64,000 bases of DNA, taken from positions 30,251-94,250 of the forward strand of contig DAHXOO010000001.1 in NCBI GenBank assembly GCA_027364845.1. The letters are read 5' to 3'. This stretch comes from Pseudomonadota bacterium. Lineage in GTDB: Bacteria > Pseudomonadota > Gammaproteobacteria > Acidiferrobacterales > UBA6901. Each line of letters opens with the position of its first letter. The first letter of the stretch is position 1. This document shows positions 6,833 through 14,477 of this stretch, one piece after another. Under the pieces are notes generated by a model. The model saw nothing but the letters and a program-made list of their open reading frames with translations. It made no database searches and had not been told where the DNA came from. Made by a program: the position numbers and the translations under genes.

Positions 6833-8099
6833 CGCTGAAGCCTGCGAGTTACCGGAAGAAAGCACCAGCGGCGGCGCTTCGCCGGTGTGTACGCGATGCA
6901 CCCGGCGCCGAGGCATCGGAATCCCGGCGCGACCGCCCGTCCATACCGACTTTACGACACTTCATGCATCCGGCCTGGTAGTATCGGACCTGACACCGCA
7001 CGCAGCTGCCACCAAAACGGCCTTGGTCAACAGACACTCCTCAGGCGCCATAATGGCGACCGGAAACCCGGCAAAATATCGTAATTGCCGCCCCATTGTG
7101 CTAGGGTCAACGTATTCAGGCGAGCGTAAGCCGGTTACCGGCTGCATCGCACTGCGGTTGCCTCAGCGACTTGTCTGGAAAAACCTCTTGCCGACTACCT
7201 GGTTCCGACCTGCGCGGCGGTGGCGTTTCAGAGACAACTGGCAGTGGCGATCTTGCGGACTGTTTGAGCATCTGATATTTACCCATGCACACGCAGCGCC
7301 TGCCTGCTTCGGCAGCATAGCGCGGTCGCCTCAGGCGGCTTATAATCGGGCTGAATAATCATACAGTTCTTATGCAACCCCTCCAAGCCTTCCGGTTTGA
7401 ATTGAGGCCCACTGGTGGGCAGCAGGAGATGTGTTGCATCACTCGGTTCTGGCGCTTGGTCGACAAGCCAGTGCTACTGCACCCGGAACGCGGCGGGAAC
7501 CGCCTAAAACAGTGGTGCGGGCCAGAATTGCACCAGCTGCGCAGTACCTGGTGCTACATCCCACAGACACCGTGGATTGGCAGAACACCTGCCCACCATT
7601 GGCCACAGGTGCCAATGGGCTGCAAACAGGCCAGCCAGAACTTCTCTGAACAACACACTGAACTGTCTTGCCCCAGCAAGCCAGTTCCCGGCCCGGGTTG
7701 GCGTGGGCTCGGCCACCATCTCCACTCCGGGCTCCCCGAGGACGGAAGACATTCCAGCATGGTGCCGCCTCCGAGTTCTGGGTCAGCCAGCTCGGCCTGC
7801 GTGCAGGTTGCCAAAGACAACCTCACAAAGGAAGCCCTTTCCTACCGGATGCAATGGCTGCGAGACAAGCCGGGGGAACCCAGGACCACTGCATCTGCGC
7901 CGGCAACCGCGGCCAAGCATCACTGCTGTCAGGGACAGTATCGTCATGCCGCCGATAACAGCAGTTCGACAAAACAGCCCATGGCCTCAGTGATAAGGCG
8001 CCAGGGTCCTGGGACGCCCATCCACGAAAGATGCCCCAGCCATAATGGCCAGTCATCGGGCATTGGCCACGCCGGCAGGCAGTCCAATCGATCGCGCGC
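6833..8099. other. 1.27 kb gap between hpf and hprK, no convincing gene
   Basis: No reading frame on either strand resembles a protein family. The longest (7372-8103, plus) has the composition of random translation, rich in Pro, Ser, Gln, His, Cys and Trp. The second part, about 7380-8100, is CpG-poor compared with its neighbours: I count about 44 CpG in 720 bases, only one in 7561-7680, against about 11 in the single 60-base line 9241-9300 of rapZ. Short perfect hairpins occur, for example GCCCAC-TG-GTGGGC near 7408 and CCATTGGC paired with GCCAATGG near 7600. In related genomes ptsN often lies in this position; it is not here. Confidence 0.6.
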
Positions 8100-9050
8100 A
8101 TGACGACGATTCTCACAGCCAATGGCCTGTTTGAGGCCCAACACGAATCCCTGAAACTCAAATGGCTTGCAGGCCATTCCGGCCGGGACCGGTTGCTGGA
8201 ACCTGCCACGGCGAAGTTCCCGGGTATGGCGCTGGTGGGCCACCTGAACTTCGTGCACCCTAACCGCGTGCAGGTTCTAGGGAATGCCGAGACCGCGTAT
8301 CTGCGCAAGCTCTCGGTCGCGAAACGCCGCCAGGCGGTCCATGACCTGTTCAACTGCCCAACTACTGCCGTGGTGGTGGTGGCTAACGACGAAAAGGTGA
8401 CTACCGACCTGCGTTCGGCGTCGGAATCGATGAAACTGCCACTGTTTTCCTCGCCACTCCCCAGTCCAAAGCTGATCGACCACCTGCAACATTATCTTGC
8501 GGGCGCACTGGCTGCACATAGCACCTTGCACGGCGTATACCTGGAGGTAATGGGTGTGGGGGTACTGCTAACCGGCGAAAGCGGCATGGGTAAAAGCGAA
8601 CTGGCGCTGGAGTTGCTGAGCCGCAATCACCGCCTCATTGCCGACGATGCCGTGGAGTTTTACCGAACTGGCCCTGACGTGCTGCTCGGGCGCAGCCCGA
8701 GCATCCTGCGGGACTTTCTCGAAGTGCGCGGCTTGGGGATACTTAACGTACGGGCCATGTTCGGCGAGACCGCCGTGCGCTCGGAGAAAACCCTGCGGCT
8801 AATCGTGCGCCTGGAACAGCTGAAGCGCAGGCGGCTGGGCAGCATTGACCGTCTGCAGGCGGAACAAAAGACCCGGCGTATCCTTGACGTAGATATTCCC
8901 GAGGTGGTGCTTTATGTGGCACCCGGCAGAAACCTTGCGGTACTGGTCGAGGTCGCAACTCGAAGTCACATCCTCCGCATGCGTGGAGTGAATCCGCTGG
9001 AGGACATCGTAAGGCGGCAGGAGGCTGCGATGCACGGCGCACAGAAATGA
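8100..9050 (+). CDS. hprK: HPr(Ser) kinase/phosphorylase
   Basis: Phosphorylates HPr on Ser46 with ATP or PPi and removes that phosphate by phosphorolysis, linking metabolic state to PTS output. The 316-residue protein has the variable N-terminal domain (1-130), the catalytic His144 in STLHGVYLEV, Walker A GESGMGKS at 159-166, LIADD after it, and the family signature LEVRGLGILNVRAMFG at about 207-222. All catalytic elements look intact. Its target Ser46 is present in the HPr encoded downstream. It is followed 49 bases later by rapZ. Confidence 0.96.
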   Translation: MTTILTANGLFEAQHESLKLKWLAGHSGRDRLLEPATAKFPGMALVGHLNFVHPNRVQVLGNAETAYLRKLSVAKRRQAVHDLFNCPTTAVVVVANDEKVTTDLRSASESMKLPLFSSPLPSPKLIDHLQHYLAGALAAHSTLHGVYLEVMGVGVLLTGESGMGKSELALELLSRNHRLIADDAVEFYRTGPDVLLGRSPSILRDFLEVRGLGILNVRAMFGETAVRSEKTLRLIVRLEQLKRRRLGSIDRLQAEQKTRRILDVDIPEVVLYVAPGRNLAVLVEVATRSHILRMRGVNPLEDIVRRQEAAMHGAQK

Positions 9051-9099: not shown

Positions 9100-9969
9100 G
9101 TGGCGATGCAAGGCATGACGCTTCTAATAGTCAGCGGGCTCTCCGGGTCCGGGAAAAGTATCGCACTCCAGGCGTTGGAGGACATGGGGTTCTATTGCAT
9201 CGACAACCTTCCGGCGGCACTGTTGCCGCACTTTGCGCGCCAGATCATGGAAAGCGAGCGCGATGACCTGCGCAATGCGGCGGTCGGCATCGACGCGCGC
9301 AATCACCGCTTCCTCGACGCCCTGCCGGCCGGGCTGAGTCAGTTGAAGTCCATCGGATTGCACTACCAGATCATTTTTCTTGAAGCGGAGGAATCCGTGC
9401 TGGTCAGGCGCTTCAAGGCCACACGCCGCAAGCATCCACTCACCAGGCGGGGTATTCCGCTGCTGGATGGAATTCGGCAGGAAAAAGCGCTGCTCGTACC
9501 GCTGTCCGCGAATGCAGCGCTGCGGGTCGACACAACCCATACCAGCCCTCACGAGCTGCGCCATCTGGTACATAACTTTGCACGCAGCGATAATACCGAA
9601 GGGATGACTCTGATGTTCGAGTCTTTTGGATTCAAGAATGGAACCCCGCTTGATGCGGATTTCGTCTTCGACGTCCGCTGCCTTCCAAATCCCTACTGGG
9701 AAGCCGACCTACGCAAACTGACAGGACTTGATACGCCGGTCATAGAGTTTCTCGAGAAAGATAAGCGGGTGCAGACCATGTTTGCGCAGCTATGCGGCTT
9801 CCTCGAGAACTGGTTGCCGAGCTTTGAGGCGGAGCATCGCAGCTACATGACCATCGCCTTGGGCTGCACCGGCGGCCAGCATCGGTCGGTATACCTGGTC
9901 AAGAAGCTGGCGGAGTACTTCTCAGGAAAAGGGGTAAAAGCCCAAATTCGACACCGGGAGTTGGCATGA
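9100..9969 (+). CDS. rapZ: RNase adapter protein RapZ
   Basis: RapZ is a nucleotide-binding protein; in enterics it guides the GlmZ small RNA to RNase E and so controls glucosamine-6-phosphate synthesis. The 289-residue protein carries Walker A GLSGSGKS at 13-20, and the C-terminal GCTGGQHRSVYLVKKLA and RHREL motifs that mark the family. A GTG at 9100 gives the full form; ATG 9106 or 9115 would trim only two to five residues. It overlaps the EIIA gene by four bases (ATGA). Target RNA in this organism is unknown. Confidence 0.95.
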   Translation: MAMQGMTLLIVSGLSGSGKSIALQALEDMGFYCIDNLPAALLPHFARQIMESERDDLRNAAVGIDARNHRFLDALPAGLSQLKSIGLHYQIIFLEAEESVLVRRFKATRRKHPLTRRGIPLLDGIRQEKALLVPLSANAALRVDTTHTSPHELRHLVHNFARSDNTEGMTLMFESFGFKNGTPLDADFVFDVRCLPNPYWEADLRKLTGLDTPVIEFLEKDKRVQTMFAQLCGFLENWLPSFEAEHRSYMTIALGCTGGQHRSVYLVKKLAEYFSGKGVKAQIRHRELA

Positions 9970-10376
9970 TAGGTCTGTTGATTCTGGCTCAGAGGGATTT
10001 CGGCAAGGGACTGCTGTACTCGGCCGAACACGTTTTGGGCACGCTGCCGCCCGGGATCGAGGCCTTGCCAGTCGACTACGAACTGCCGCAGGAGCGCCTC
10101 GAACAGGCTATCGTTGAATGCTTGAAGCGGCTTGACCGCGGCAACGGTGTGCTAATTCTCGCCGACATCTACGGCGCATCTCACACTAACGCCGCCTGCC
10201 GGCTGCTCAACAAGCACCACGTCGAACTCGTGAGTGGTGTCAATCTCCCGATGCTCATCCGGGTTCTGAATTACCGCGACCTGAACATGGATGGGCTCGT
10301 TGCAAAAGCTCTGACAGGCGGCCCCGAAGGCATCGTGTCTGCGCCGGCAGTGCTACGCAAGGCGGAGCCCAACTGA
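9966..10376 (+). CDS. Mannose-type PTS EIIA domain protein lacking the active-site histidine
   Basis: This 136-residue protein matches single-domain EIIA-Man-family proteins (PtsM/ManX type) found beside HPr and enzyme I: an N-terminal beta strand MIGLLILAQRDFGKGLL, then GVLILADIYGAS and SGVNLPMLIRVLNYR. In working EIIAs the strand ends in a phospho-accepting His, as in THG or AHA. Here the aligned residue 9 is Gln (codon CAG at 9990-9992, one base from CAC). The later DIYGASH replaces the usual Pro with His. The fold should be intact, but phosphate transfer from HPr looks impossible by the normal route. It overlaps rapZ and ptsH, so it is co-translated with the phosphorelay. A sequence error at one base would also explain it. 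Confidence 0.88.
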   Translation: MIGLLILAQRDFGKGLLYSAEHVLGTLPPGIEALPVDYELPQERLEQAIVECLKRLDRGNGVLILADIYGASHTNAACRLLNKHHVELVSGVNLPMLIRVLNYRDLNMDGLVAKALTGGPEGIVSAPAVLRKAEPN

Positions 10377-10645
10377 TGAAGAATAGGACCATAGTGGTCG
10401 TGAATAAACTCGGCATGCACGCGCGCGCATCGGCGAAATTCGTCAATCTGGCGTCACAGTTTAAGAGCGAGATCACCCTGGAACGCAATGGCCATCAGGC
10501 TAACGGAAAGAGCATCATGGGAATCATGATGCTGGCTGCTGGCAAAGGCAGCCAGCTGAACCTGCACGTCAGCGGGCAGGATGAGGATGAGGCGATGCAT
10601 GCCTTGCGCAATTTGGTGGAAAACCGCTTCGGCGAGGAAGAGTAA
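10376..10645 (+). CDS. ptsH: Phosphocarrier protein HPr
   Basis: Small cytoplasmic carrier that takes phosphate from enzyme I on a histidine. The 89-residue protein has His15 in KLGMHARASAKF and the regulatory Ser46 in GKSIMGIMML, at exactly the canonical positions; Ser46 is the substrate of the HprK encoded upstream. The ATG overlaps the stop of the EIIA-like gene (TGATG), and ptsI starts five bases after the stop. No EIIB, EIIC or EIID permease gene is nearby, so a regulatory rather than sugar-transporting role is likely. Confidence 0.97.
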   Translation: MKNRTIVVVNKLGMHARASAKFVNLASQFKSEITLERNGHQANGKSIMGIMMLAAGKGSQLNLHVSGQDEDEAMHALRNLVENRFGEEE

Positions 10646-10650
10646 TTGCC

Positions 10651-12390
10651 ATGCTTGTATTGCACGGGACTGGGGTCAGCAGCGGAATTGCCATTGGCAA
10701 GGCATACGTGCTGCACCGCGAACGGCCGGAGGTGCCGGAATATGCACTGCCCGCGAACCTTATCGAAGAGGAGGTTGAGCGTTTCACCTCCGCAATCGAT
10801 TCGGCGCGAAACCAGCTCGGTCGCATCCGCGACCACATCCCGAAGTCCGCGCCTCCTGAAATATCGAGCATCATCGACACGCATCTGCTGATTCTGCACG
10901 ACAAAATGATCTGCGAAGCCCCAGCCGACACAATCCGAAAAAGTGGATGCAATGCCGAATGGGCGCTAAAGATACAAAGCGACGAGCTTGCAGCAGTGTT
11001 CGAACAGATGGACGATGCATATCTGCGCAGCAAGAAGACCGACGTCGGTCAGGTCGTGGACCGCATTCTGCGCAATCTACTGATGTCTACCGACGAGGAA
11101 CACGAACAGATCACGGATGCGCTCGACGGACAGATCGTGGTCGCCAACGACCTGACACCCGCGGATATAGTATTGCTCAAGCATACGCGCATCGCGGCGT
11201 TCGTGACCAATCTCGGAGGACCGATTTCCCACACGGCGATCTTGGCACGCAGTCTCGAGATCCCCGCCATCGTCGCGGTGCACAACGCCACGCGCGGCAT
11301 ACGCAACGGCGAGGAACTAATAGTCGATGGGAAGCTCGGCGTCCTGATTGTCGCGCCCGAGCATGCCATCATTGCTGAATATCAGCGCCGACAGAAAGAC
11401 ATAATCCAACTCAAGCGCGAGCTGACGGCGATCAAGGTTAGCCGCTCGGAAACGCGCGACGGCCACGCGATCACGCTTTGCGCAAACATCGAATTGCCGG
11501 ATGACGTCAAGGCAGCGACTAAGGTTGCCGCGCAAGGGATCGGTCTATATCGCACCGAATTTTTGTACATGAACCGGCCGGATCTGCCCGATGAAGAGGA
11601 ACAATATCGAGCCTATGCGAAAGTCGTAAAGGCCATTTCCGGTAAACCTGTAACCATACGTACGCTCGACCTCGGCAACGACAAACGCGTCGATGGCGGC
11701 AACCGCGGGAACGACATGGTCACCGTCAACCCGGCTTTGGGATTGCGTGCCGTGCGGCTGTGCCTGCATGACACGTCCCTGTTCCGGCCGCAGCTACGTG
11801 CGATATTGCGGGCTTCGGCGCTAGGCCAGGTACGTATCATGATTCCCATGTTGTCGAGTCTCGGGGAGATGTTCCGCGTACTGGATTTGATCGAGGAAAC
11901 CAAGGTAGAACTGACACGCCAGGGGCAGCCGTTCAACCCCGCGCTGCAGGTGGGCGGCATGATCGAGGTGCCGGCGGCTGCGGTTTCCGCCGACCTGTTC
12001 GCGCCGCATCTCGATTTCTTTTCGATCGGAACGAACGACCTAATCCAATACACATTGGCAATCGACCGCGTCGACGAAGCGGTGAACTATCTTTATGATC
12101 CGCTGCATCCATCAGTACTGCGGCTGATCTCAACCACGATACGCGCCGGGAAGGCCGCTGGCATTCCGGTTGCCATGTGTGGCGAGATGGCCGGCGACAC
12201 GCGCTATACGCGCCTGCTGCTCGGCCTGGGTCTGGATGAATTCAGCATGCACCCCTCGGCGCTACTGGAAATCAAGAGGATCGTGCGCGACAGCAACCTC
12301 GCCGAGCTGGGGCAATTCGCCCAAAGCGTGCTTAACTCACGCGACACCACGGAATTGCACGCGCTCGTGGATAGGATGAACGAGCACTAG
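10651..12390 (+). CDS. ptsI: Phosphoenolpyruvate-protein phosphotransferase (PTS enzyme I)
   Basis: Transfers phosphate from PEP to HPr His15, the first step of the PTS. The 579-residue protein has the N-terminal HPr-binding and phosphohistidine domains with active His194 in GGPISHTAILARS, and the C-terminal PEP-binding TIM barrel with FFSIGTNDLIQYTLAIDR and the catalytic VAMCGEMAGD. There is no GAF domain, so it is the ordinary EI type, not EI-Ntr (PtsP). It ends the hprK-rapZ-EIIA-ptsH-ptsI unit and is convergent with the WYL gene; I see no clear terminator in the 70 bases between them. Confidence 0.96.
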   Translation: MLVLHGTGVSSGIAIGKAYVLHRERPEVPEYALPANLIEEEVERFTSAIDSARNQLGRIRDHIPKSAPPEISSIIDTHLLILHDKMICEAPADTIRKSGCNAEWALKIQSDELAAVFEQMDDAYLRSKKTDVGQVVDRILRNLLMSTDEEHEQITDALDGQIVVANDLTPADIVLLKHTRIAAFVTNLGGPISHTAILARSLEIPAIVAVHNATRGIRNGEELIVDGKLGVLIVAPEHAIIAEYQRRQKDIIQLKRELTAIKVSRSETRDGHAITLCANIELPDDVKAATKVAAQGIGLYRTEFLYMNRPDLPDEEEQYRAYAKVVKAISGKPVTIRTLDLGNDKRVDGGNRGNDMVTVNPALGLRAVRLCLHDTSLFRPQLRAILRASALGQVRIMIPMLSSLGEMFRVLDLIEETKVELTRQGQPFNPALQVGGMIEVPAAAVSADLFAPHLDFFSIGTNDLIQYTLAIDRVDEAVNYLYDPLHPSVLRLISTTIRAGKAAGIPVAMCGEMAGDTRYTRLLLGLGLDEFSMHPSALLEIKRIVRDSNLAELGQFAQSVLNSRDTTELHALVDRMNEH

Positions 12391-12990: not shown

Positions 12991-14424
12991 TCATTGCCCG
13001 GTTTCCACCGAACCGAATATCCGTTCGCCGAGGCCCCACTTGCTCGCCAGCGTTTCGGTTGCGTTGACGAATTCCTCGGCCCGTGTCGGGTGGTTAACCC
13101 ATGCACGCGCGAGCAGCGCCAAAGCGGACGCATGGTCAGGCGCCAGTGCCAACATATGGATCAGTTCCCCCGCTGCGGTCCCGACCAATTCTGCTCCCAG
13201 GAGCGCTCCGCTGTCTAGTTCTCCGATCAGGCGCACAAAGCCGCGCGTGTCGTCCTGTCCGAGGGCGCAGGGTGAACTCTCGAAGGCTGCGAAGCCCACC
13301 GCGGGTTCCAGTCCGGCGTCTTCCGCAAGATCCTCGTTGAGCCCAATGCGTGCAAGCTCCACGGCGCTGTAGATCACTTCCGGCACCCACAGTACATCAC
13401 GTCGGAACCGCGCCTGTGACGACCCACCCGCGACAATGTTCCGCACCGCGACAGCGGCGTCGGCGATTGCCTGATTGGCGGTCATGTGCTCGGATATGCA
13501 GTCGCCAATCGCGTAGACATGCGGCACGCTGGTCTGCAGCCACTCGTTTACACGCACGAACCCTCGATCGTCCAGTGCTACTCCGACGACGTCTAGTGCC
13601 AGCCCGTCAGTAAACGGAGTGCGTCCGGTTCCGAGCAGCACCCAGTCCACGGCCAGCTTCCGTCCTGTAGCAAGCGCGAGTATCAGTTCCCCATCACGCA
13701 CATCACTGCCGATCACACTCGCTCCTTCAATCGGCTCGATGCCGCAGTCGCGCAGCGCCCCGCTCAGAGTGGTCAGCGCCTGCGGGCTGAACCGGGTGCG
13801 CGTCAACGGCGAACGGCGCGTGATCCAATACACCTGTCGGCCAAGCATTGTGAGTATGAAGGCAAACTCGGCACCAATCAGACCGCCGCCGACTATTGCG
13901 ACGCGATGGCCCGTAGGGGGTGGCTCATCGAAAAGCATGTCCGTGGTCAAGATACGCTGTGGCCGTGGGGCGAGCCCTGCCGGCGCCGACGGCTTCGATC
14001 CCGTTGCGATGATCACATGGGCGGCTTCGAGACACTCGTAGCCCGCCTCAACCGCGACACCTACCTCGTGCGGCGAAACAAAGCTGGCAGTTCCGCTGCG
14101 CATGCTGATACCCAGGCGTTTCATGTAATCCAGATAACTTTCCTGCACCTTGCGCACCACTGCTTCCTGATGCTCCCAAGCCTGCATCAGGTTGGCCTCA
14201 AGGCGCCCATTGATTCCGCGCCCTGCAAAATTGCGGGATGCGGCAATCAGACTTGCGCTGTGGTGCCAGTCCTTCTTCGGCACACATCCTCGATTGAGAC
14301 AGCAACCGCCCCAGTCCTGTTTTTCTACGATCGCCACACGCTTGCCACGCAACGCGCCGAGCACTGCGGCACGGTAGCCGCCGGGGCCGGATCCGATCAC
14401 GACGATATCAAACGCCTCTGTCAC
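12991..14424 (-). CDS. Dihydrolipoamide dehydrogenase-like FAD disulfide oxidoreductase
   Basis: A class I pyridine nucleotide-disulfide oxidoreductase of about 477 residues. FAD site GSGPGGYRAA is near the N-terminus, then the redox disulfide in GGCCLNRGCVPKK (CxxxxC, with an extra Cys where Thr is usual), NAD site GGGLIGAEF, the second FAD motif VYAIGDC, and a C-terminal dimer domain with NHPTRAEEF, where the catalytic His is expected. The start is taken at GTG 14424, with GGAGG 11 bases upstream; the frame is open to ATG 14469. No 2-oxo acid dehydrogenase E1 or E2 gene is adjacent, so a lipoamide role is not supported by context. It could act on another disulfide substrate; mercuric reductase is unlikely because the C-terminal Cys pair is absent. 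Confidence 0.8.
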   Translation of the reverse strand: MTEAFDIVVIGSGPGGYRAAVLGALRGKRVAIVEKQDWGGCCLNRGCVPKKDWHHSASLIAASRNFAGRGINGRLEANLMQAWEHQEAVVRKVQESYLDYMKRLGISMRSGTASFVSPHEVGVAVEAGYECLEAAHVIIATGSKPSAPAGLAPRPQRILTTDMLFDEPPPTGHRVAIVGGGLIGAEFAFILTMLGRQVYWITRRSPLTRTRFSPQALTTLSGALRDCGIEPIEGASVIGSDVRDGELILALATGRKLAVDWVLLGTGRTPFTDGLALDVVGVALDDRGFVRVNEWLQTSVPHVYAIGDCISEHMTANQAIADAAVAVRNIVAGGSSQARFRRDVLWVPEVIYSAVELARIGLNEDLAEDAGLEPAVGFAAFESSPCALGQDDTRGFVRLIGELDSGALLGAELVGTAAGELIHMLALAPDHASALALLARAWVNHPTRAEEFVNATETLASKWGLGERIFGSVETGQ

Positions 14425-14477
14425 AATTTTTCGATCCTCCGTTTCGCGAGTGAAAATGCCGTTCACCACGGAACCAA

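Follow-up and report, generated by a model that had tools for sequence, protein, structure and literature searches.

In the IIA-Man protein of Escherichia coli, the imidazole of the active site histidine, His10, is surrounded by Gly71, Ser72, Pro73, and Phe36 from its own subunit and by Met23 and Leu24 from the other (PMC7587183). Pro73 touches the active imidazole, Asp67 activates His10, Ser72 holds the phosphoryl group, and Asn75 contacts HPr (PMC7587183). P-NPr phosphorylates the Brucella PtsM protein, also of the EIIA-Man type, in vitro, and PtsM also binds SucA (PMC2937029). A phosphoacceptor histidine at the end of the first β-strand is a hallmark of the EIIA-Man proteins. Described here is an EIIA-Man protein in which that histidine is missing, its place being taken by Gln9, and in which a second histidine has appeared at position 73.

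The regulatory PTS locus

The window, namely the whole stretch of 64,000 nucleotides that was analyzed, contains hprK, rapZ, EIIA-Man, ptsH, and ptsI in a cluster, as for a regulatory (non-transport) PTS with HprK. The genes are as follows.

8100..9050, + strand: HprK/P, with the Walker A motif GESGMGKSE (TIGR00679, 338.5 bits)
9124..9969, + strand: RapZ, start codon provisional (NF003828, 354.8 bits)
9966..10376, + strand: EIIA-Man variant gene, 136 aa (PF03610, 53.9 bits; model pLDDT 91; TM 0.85 to 1pdo; sole PF03610 match in the genome)
10376..10645, + strand: HPr, with His15 (KLGMHARAS) and Ser46 (GKSIMG) kept (PF00381, 105 bits)
10651..12390, + strand: EI (PtsI), with the active His in GGPISHTAI and the Cys in CGEMAG (TIGR01417, 571.7 bits)

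The translation of the open reading frame at 9966-10376 (+) starts MIGLLILAQRDFG..., and its product reads MIGLLILAQRDFGKGLLYSAEHVLG...LILADIYGASHTNAACRLL.... In the profile search its PF03610 score lies well above the curated cut-off of 21.4 bits, which identifies it as an EIIA-Man protein, and its score of 46.1 bits with the transporter-type model TIGR00824 falls under the cut-off of 98.35. The predicted structure (pTM 0.85) superimposes onto the crystal structure of E. coli IIA-Man (1pdo) with an rmsd of 1.7, and the α/β fold matches. The ATG of the EIIA-Man gene overlaps the stop codon of rapZ, and its TGA overlaps the ATG of the HPr gene, in keeping with a preliminary description of this DNA, which had the gene tightly coupled to rapZ and ptsH. 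That description had also reported an HPr retaining both His15 and Ser46 and an intact HprK, and the motifs listed above bear this out. Further along the window, the region 12991-14469 on the - strand encodes a flavoprotein resembling lipoamide dehydrogenase (Pyr_redox_2), whose redox motif, GGCCLNRGCVPKK, is unusual.

The active site region

Four codons of the EIIA-Man variant gene are relevant to its active site.

9990..9992, + strand: codon 9, CAG, Gln at the canonical phospho-His position, E. coli His10 (profile alignment; relatives)
10029..10031, + strand: codon 22, CAC, His, the equivalent of E. coli Met23 in the pocket of the adjacent subunit (profile alignment; PMC7587183)
10164..10166, + strand: codon 67, GAC, Asp67, which in canonical EIIA-Man proteins positions the active His and activates it (invariant in both groups defined below; role from PMC7587183)
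10182..10184, + strand: codon 73, CAC, His73, the proposed relocated phosphoacceptor, a Pro in canonical EIIA-Man proteins (counts over 281 distinct sequences; pattern search)

The profile alignment to the E. coli protein pairs Gln9 with His10, His22 with Met23, and His73 with Pro73. Together with the translation, it confirms the central observation of the preliminary description, that a glutamine (CAG) stands where the active histidine belongs. As to whether relatives share this glutamine, the answer is divided: it is common to all four congeneric genomes (4/4, at 78-84% identity), but across the order of the source genome residue 9 varies and may be Q, E, D, Y, F, T, or L. A sequencing error at position 9992 is ruled out since the congeners have Gln9, and in relatives it is coded by both CAA (17 cases) and CAG (13). 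Within the genus the dN/dS of the gene is 0.11-0.17, indicative of purifying selection, and this rules out a pseudogene. On the basis of these comparisons, the loss of the canonical histidine in the source genome's EIIA-Man protein is real, shared, and old.

The second substitution, which was absent from the preliminary description, lies in the active site loop. This loop reads GASHTN in the window protein versus GGSPFN in E. coli, such that Pro73 is replaced by a histidine. In the model, residue 9 closes the strand formed by residues 3-9, and residue 73 is positioned in the first turn of the helix formed by residues 72-78, the one coming after the third strand. Given that Pro73 and Met23 surround the His10 imidazole in the E. 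coli protein (PMC7587183), His73 would be expected to line the old active site, as would His22 of the other subunit.

Distribution of residues 9 and 73

Among 50 sequences from the source genome, its order, and its class, residue 9 is Q, E, D, Y, F, T, L, or H, and His73 is present wherever His9 is missing. The sample was widened by contigs of further genomes, a class-wide pattern search for His73, a class-wide profile search (150 sequences read), and the orders of the outlying matches; many of the sampled genomes are fragmented and probably MAGs. The resulting 281 distinct EIIA-Man sequences comprise 217 with His9/Pro73, 54 with X9/His73, five with His9/His73, two with X9/Pro73, and three with Gln or Ala at position 73. 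Residue 73 is a histidine in 59 and a proline in 219, and His9 is absent from 54 of the 59 His73 proteins versus two of the 219 Pro73 proteins. These figures, with position 73 held almost solely by Pro or His (278/281), link the two positions. In the even class sample of 150 EIIA-Man proteins, the combinations are His9/Pro73 (142), X9/His73 (7), and Gln9/Pro73 (1), a distribution that speaks against chance as the reason for the Gln9 of the window protein.

Of 127 columns, column 9 ranks 7th in conservation in the Pro73 group and 86th in the His73 group, the largest drop of any column, and it is column 73 that shares the most mutual information with the presence of His at position 9. All 59 His73 proteins keep Asp67, Ser/Thr72, and Asn75, the last being the residue in contact with HPr, and Gly70, Gly91, and Met96 are, like Asp67 and Asn75, invariant in that group; residue 9 may be Phe, Leu, or Pro. 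The relaxed constraint across the active site that would be expected of a dead EIIA was not seen: column 9 is relaxed, and columns 67, 70, 72 (Ser/Thr), 73, and 75 are fixed, the invariance of 73 carrying no evidential weight because the groups are defined by that residue.

His73 occurs in families f1-f7 of the source order, in f116, in f64, and in one f114 genome. Family f7 holds all three stages, namely His9/Pro73 (G050), His9/His73 (G046, G034, and G055), and X9/His73. In f116, His73 is found in 4/4 genomes, two with Pro9 and two with His9. The double-His proteins, three in f7 and two in f116, look to be the intermediates expected of a transfer of function between the two positions. Tyr9/His73 is found in all seven f64 genomes with a match. 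The f114 genome carries Gln9/His73, and its relatives have Arg9/Gln73 and His9/Gln73. Note that these two Gln73 proteins (Arg9 in L145 of G801 and His9 in L146 of G279) have a separate HPr-EI context and that the pocket is variable in their order. The order's one His9/Pro73 member (L041 of G050) was considered as a possible contaminant contig, which is unsupported; its RapZ and HPr have their nearest matches among other f7 members.

A search by the His73 pattern only, blind to residue 9, found four class genomes outside the source order (two with Pro9, one with Gln9, and one with His9), and across 398 phylum genomes the pattern, which needs Tyr or Phe at position 69 and for that reason missed f64 and may have missed others, gave no further cases.

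Exceptions among the sequences include Arg9/Gln73 (G801), Thr9/Pro73 (L064, a Desulfovibrio MAG), and Gln9/Pro73 (L296 of G088, family f39). They count against a relocated acceptor inasmuch as they demonstrate that His9 can be lost without a histidine at position 73. L296, the sole Pro73 protein of the class sample without His9, also has an arginine replacing Asn75. It resembles a protein in decay and, judged by these residues, may be an EIIA-Man that is genuinely dead, of use as a contrast case.

On the best protein tree (133 columns, poorly resolved), His73 takes five changes and the loss of His9 takes ten. The well supported branches yield only two independent pairs, and the association between positions 9 and 73 is not significant after correction for descent. 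The relocation to His73 may have occurred more than once (in the source order, f116, f64, and f114); a single origin of His73 followed by drift at position 9, or reversals, would also be compatible with the tree.

The phosphorelay and its candidate acceptors

The active histidines are kept in every readable HPr and EI encoded beside a His73 protein, the EI motif in G165 and G281 being GSPISHTAI. A profile search of the source genome revealed one PF03610 protein and no match to PF00359 (EIIA-Ntr), PF00358 (EIIA-Glc), or PF03830 (EIIB-Man), the last absence to be read against a genome completeness of 96%. By these profiles the window EIIA-Man protein is the only candidate acceptor in the genome among the EIIA-Man, EIIA-Ntr, and EIIA-Glc kinds, the search having covered these three EIIA families and PF03830. 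Intact EI and HPr are themselves not proof of an acceptor, since in Legionella pneumophila both persist without any EII (PMC13104625).

PtsN (PF00359) is absent from G000 and from all sampled f1 and f4 genomes, so that the system does not qualify as a PTS-Ntr. The ptsN gene is kept in f2, f3, f5, f6, and part of f7, all of which lack His9, and thus the swap did not follow from the loss of ptsN. In other families of the order, ptsN occupies the spacer between hpf and hprK.

6833..8099: hpf-hprK spacer, with no ptsN or trace of it found

This 1.27 kb spacer contains long open reading frames without a Pfam match and shows little conservation with the congeners (one 206-base stretch at 70% with G002). 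In another genome (G012), a fragment directly upstream of hprK (L314:3354-3473) weakly resembles ptsN (E 0.001), suggesting that the gene has decayed in that genus.

Interpretation of the altered pocket

The exchange of residues is conserved, and the upstream relay is intact. The likeliest explanation is that the role of phosphoacceptor has passed from His9 to His73 inside a single pocket and that the relay probably still works. In such a mechanism, PEP would phosphorylate EI, which in turn would phosphorylate His15 of HPr. HPr would then dock onto the conserved groove and pass the phosphate to His73, which would be activated by Asp67 and its phosphate held by Ser/Thr72. Gln9 would only pack or hydrogen-bond in the old place. 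The protein would thereby stand at the end of a PTS with purely regulatory functions, as its final phosphate acceptor, and with a presumed cellular target. The evolutionary route would run from His9/Pro73 through His9/His73 to X9/His73, a direction suggested by the stages found. With slightly less assurance, we favor the broader view that in a core protein of the PTS the catalytic histidine has shifted from one secondary structural element to another within the same pocket, and that living species keep the stages (His9, both, and His73).

The next explanation, considerably less probable, is that put forward in the preliminary description, which proposed a pseudo-EIIA, an unphosphorylatable partner or sensor, with the relay ending at HPr. 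On such an account the protein would bind or sense HPr or the phosphorylation state of HPr, and His73 would serve in binding or folding. The loss of the canonical histidine on which it was founded stands, and extends to 54 of the 59 variant proteins; the HPr-docking residues are kept, as a pure binder would need, and L. pneumophila provides a precedent for EI and HPr without EII (PMC13104625). The unphosphorylatable part is disfavored, however, because a dead site should drift, and here residue 73 went from proline to histidine and stayed, with Asp67, Ser/Thr72, and Asn75 kept. A pseudo-EIIA leaves unexplained both the replacement of Pro73 by a fixed pocket histidine and the fixed catalytic Asp67 and Ser/Thr72. 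Moreover, where a Pro73 protein of the class sample has lost His9 (L296), Asn75 has been lost as well, as in decay.

An improbable third reading holds that the pocket is a metal or ligand site, formed by His73, Asp67, His22 of the other subunit, and Gln, Glu, Asp, or Tyr at position 9, and that the protein is a sensor rather than a phosphocarrier. Several possible ligand residues would indeed share one pocket, but residue 9 can be Phe, Leu, or Pro, and both the retained docking residues and the coupling of the gene to those of HPr and EI in one operon speak against it. Least probable of all is that His22 is the new acceptor, entering the pocket from the partner subunit of the dimer, and that His73 is a helper: His22 is present in 57/59 proteins of the His73 group versus 60/219 of the Pro73 group, and the equivalent Met23 of subunit B lines the E. 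coli pocket (PMC7587183), but it is common among canonical His9 proteins and missing in both f5 genomes, which have His73 without His9.

A relocation of the acceptor to His73 would bear on annotation, given that the rules and models for EIIA-Man assume one fixed phospho-His. By such a rule, approximately 50 sampled species would count as relay-dead, including the whole sampled family of the source genome. If His73 carries the phosphate, these proteins represent a clean natural case in which a catalytic residue has changed position and the intermediates still live. Otherwise, EI and HPr operate in these bacteria without a known acceptor.

Comparison with known systems

The window protein resembles the EIIA-Man proteins of the rpoN/ptsH regulatory clusters (Brucella PtsM, PMC2937029, and the alpha- and betaproteobacterial ManX) in being a single domain without an apparent EIIB or EIIC partner, encoded near HPr and HprK. 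It differs from them in having Gln9 and His73, whereas they have a histidine at position 9 (His9 in Brucella as its authors propose, PMC2937029). With the IIA-Man proteins of E. coli (ManX, 1pdo/1vrc) and Streptococcus pneumoniae (6fmg) it shares the fold, Asp67, Ser/Thr72, Asn75, and the HPr-facing loop. It departs from these in the replacements of His10 by Gln, Pro73 by His, and Met23 by His, and in that a mannose-type EIIB was not found in its genome. In the literature searched, outside of which lie most subscription journals, neither a displaced or missing histidine in an EIIA-Man protein nor a moved catalytic residue in a PTS EIIA was found described. Indeed, we know of no such move for any PTS EIIA. 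Enzymes are known in which the catalytic residue has moved elsewhere in the same pocket, and the window protein would resemble these in that the same chemistry is expected from a different position in the sequence.
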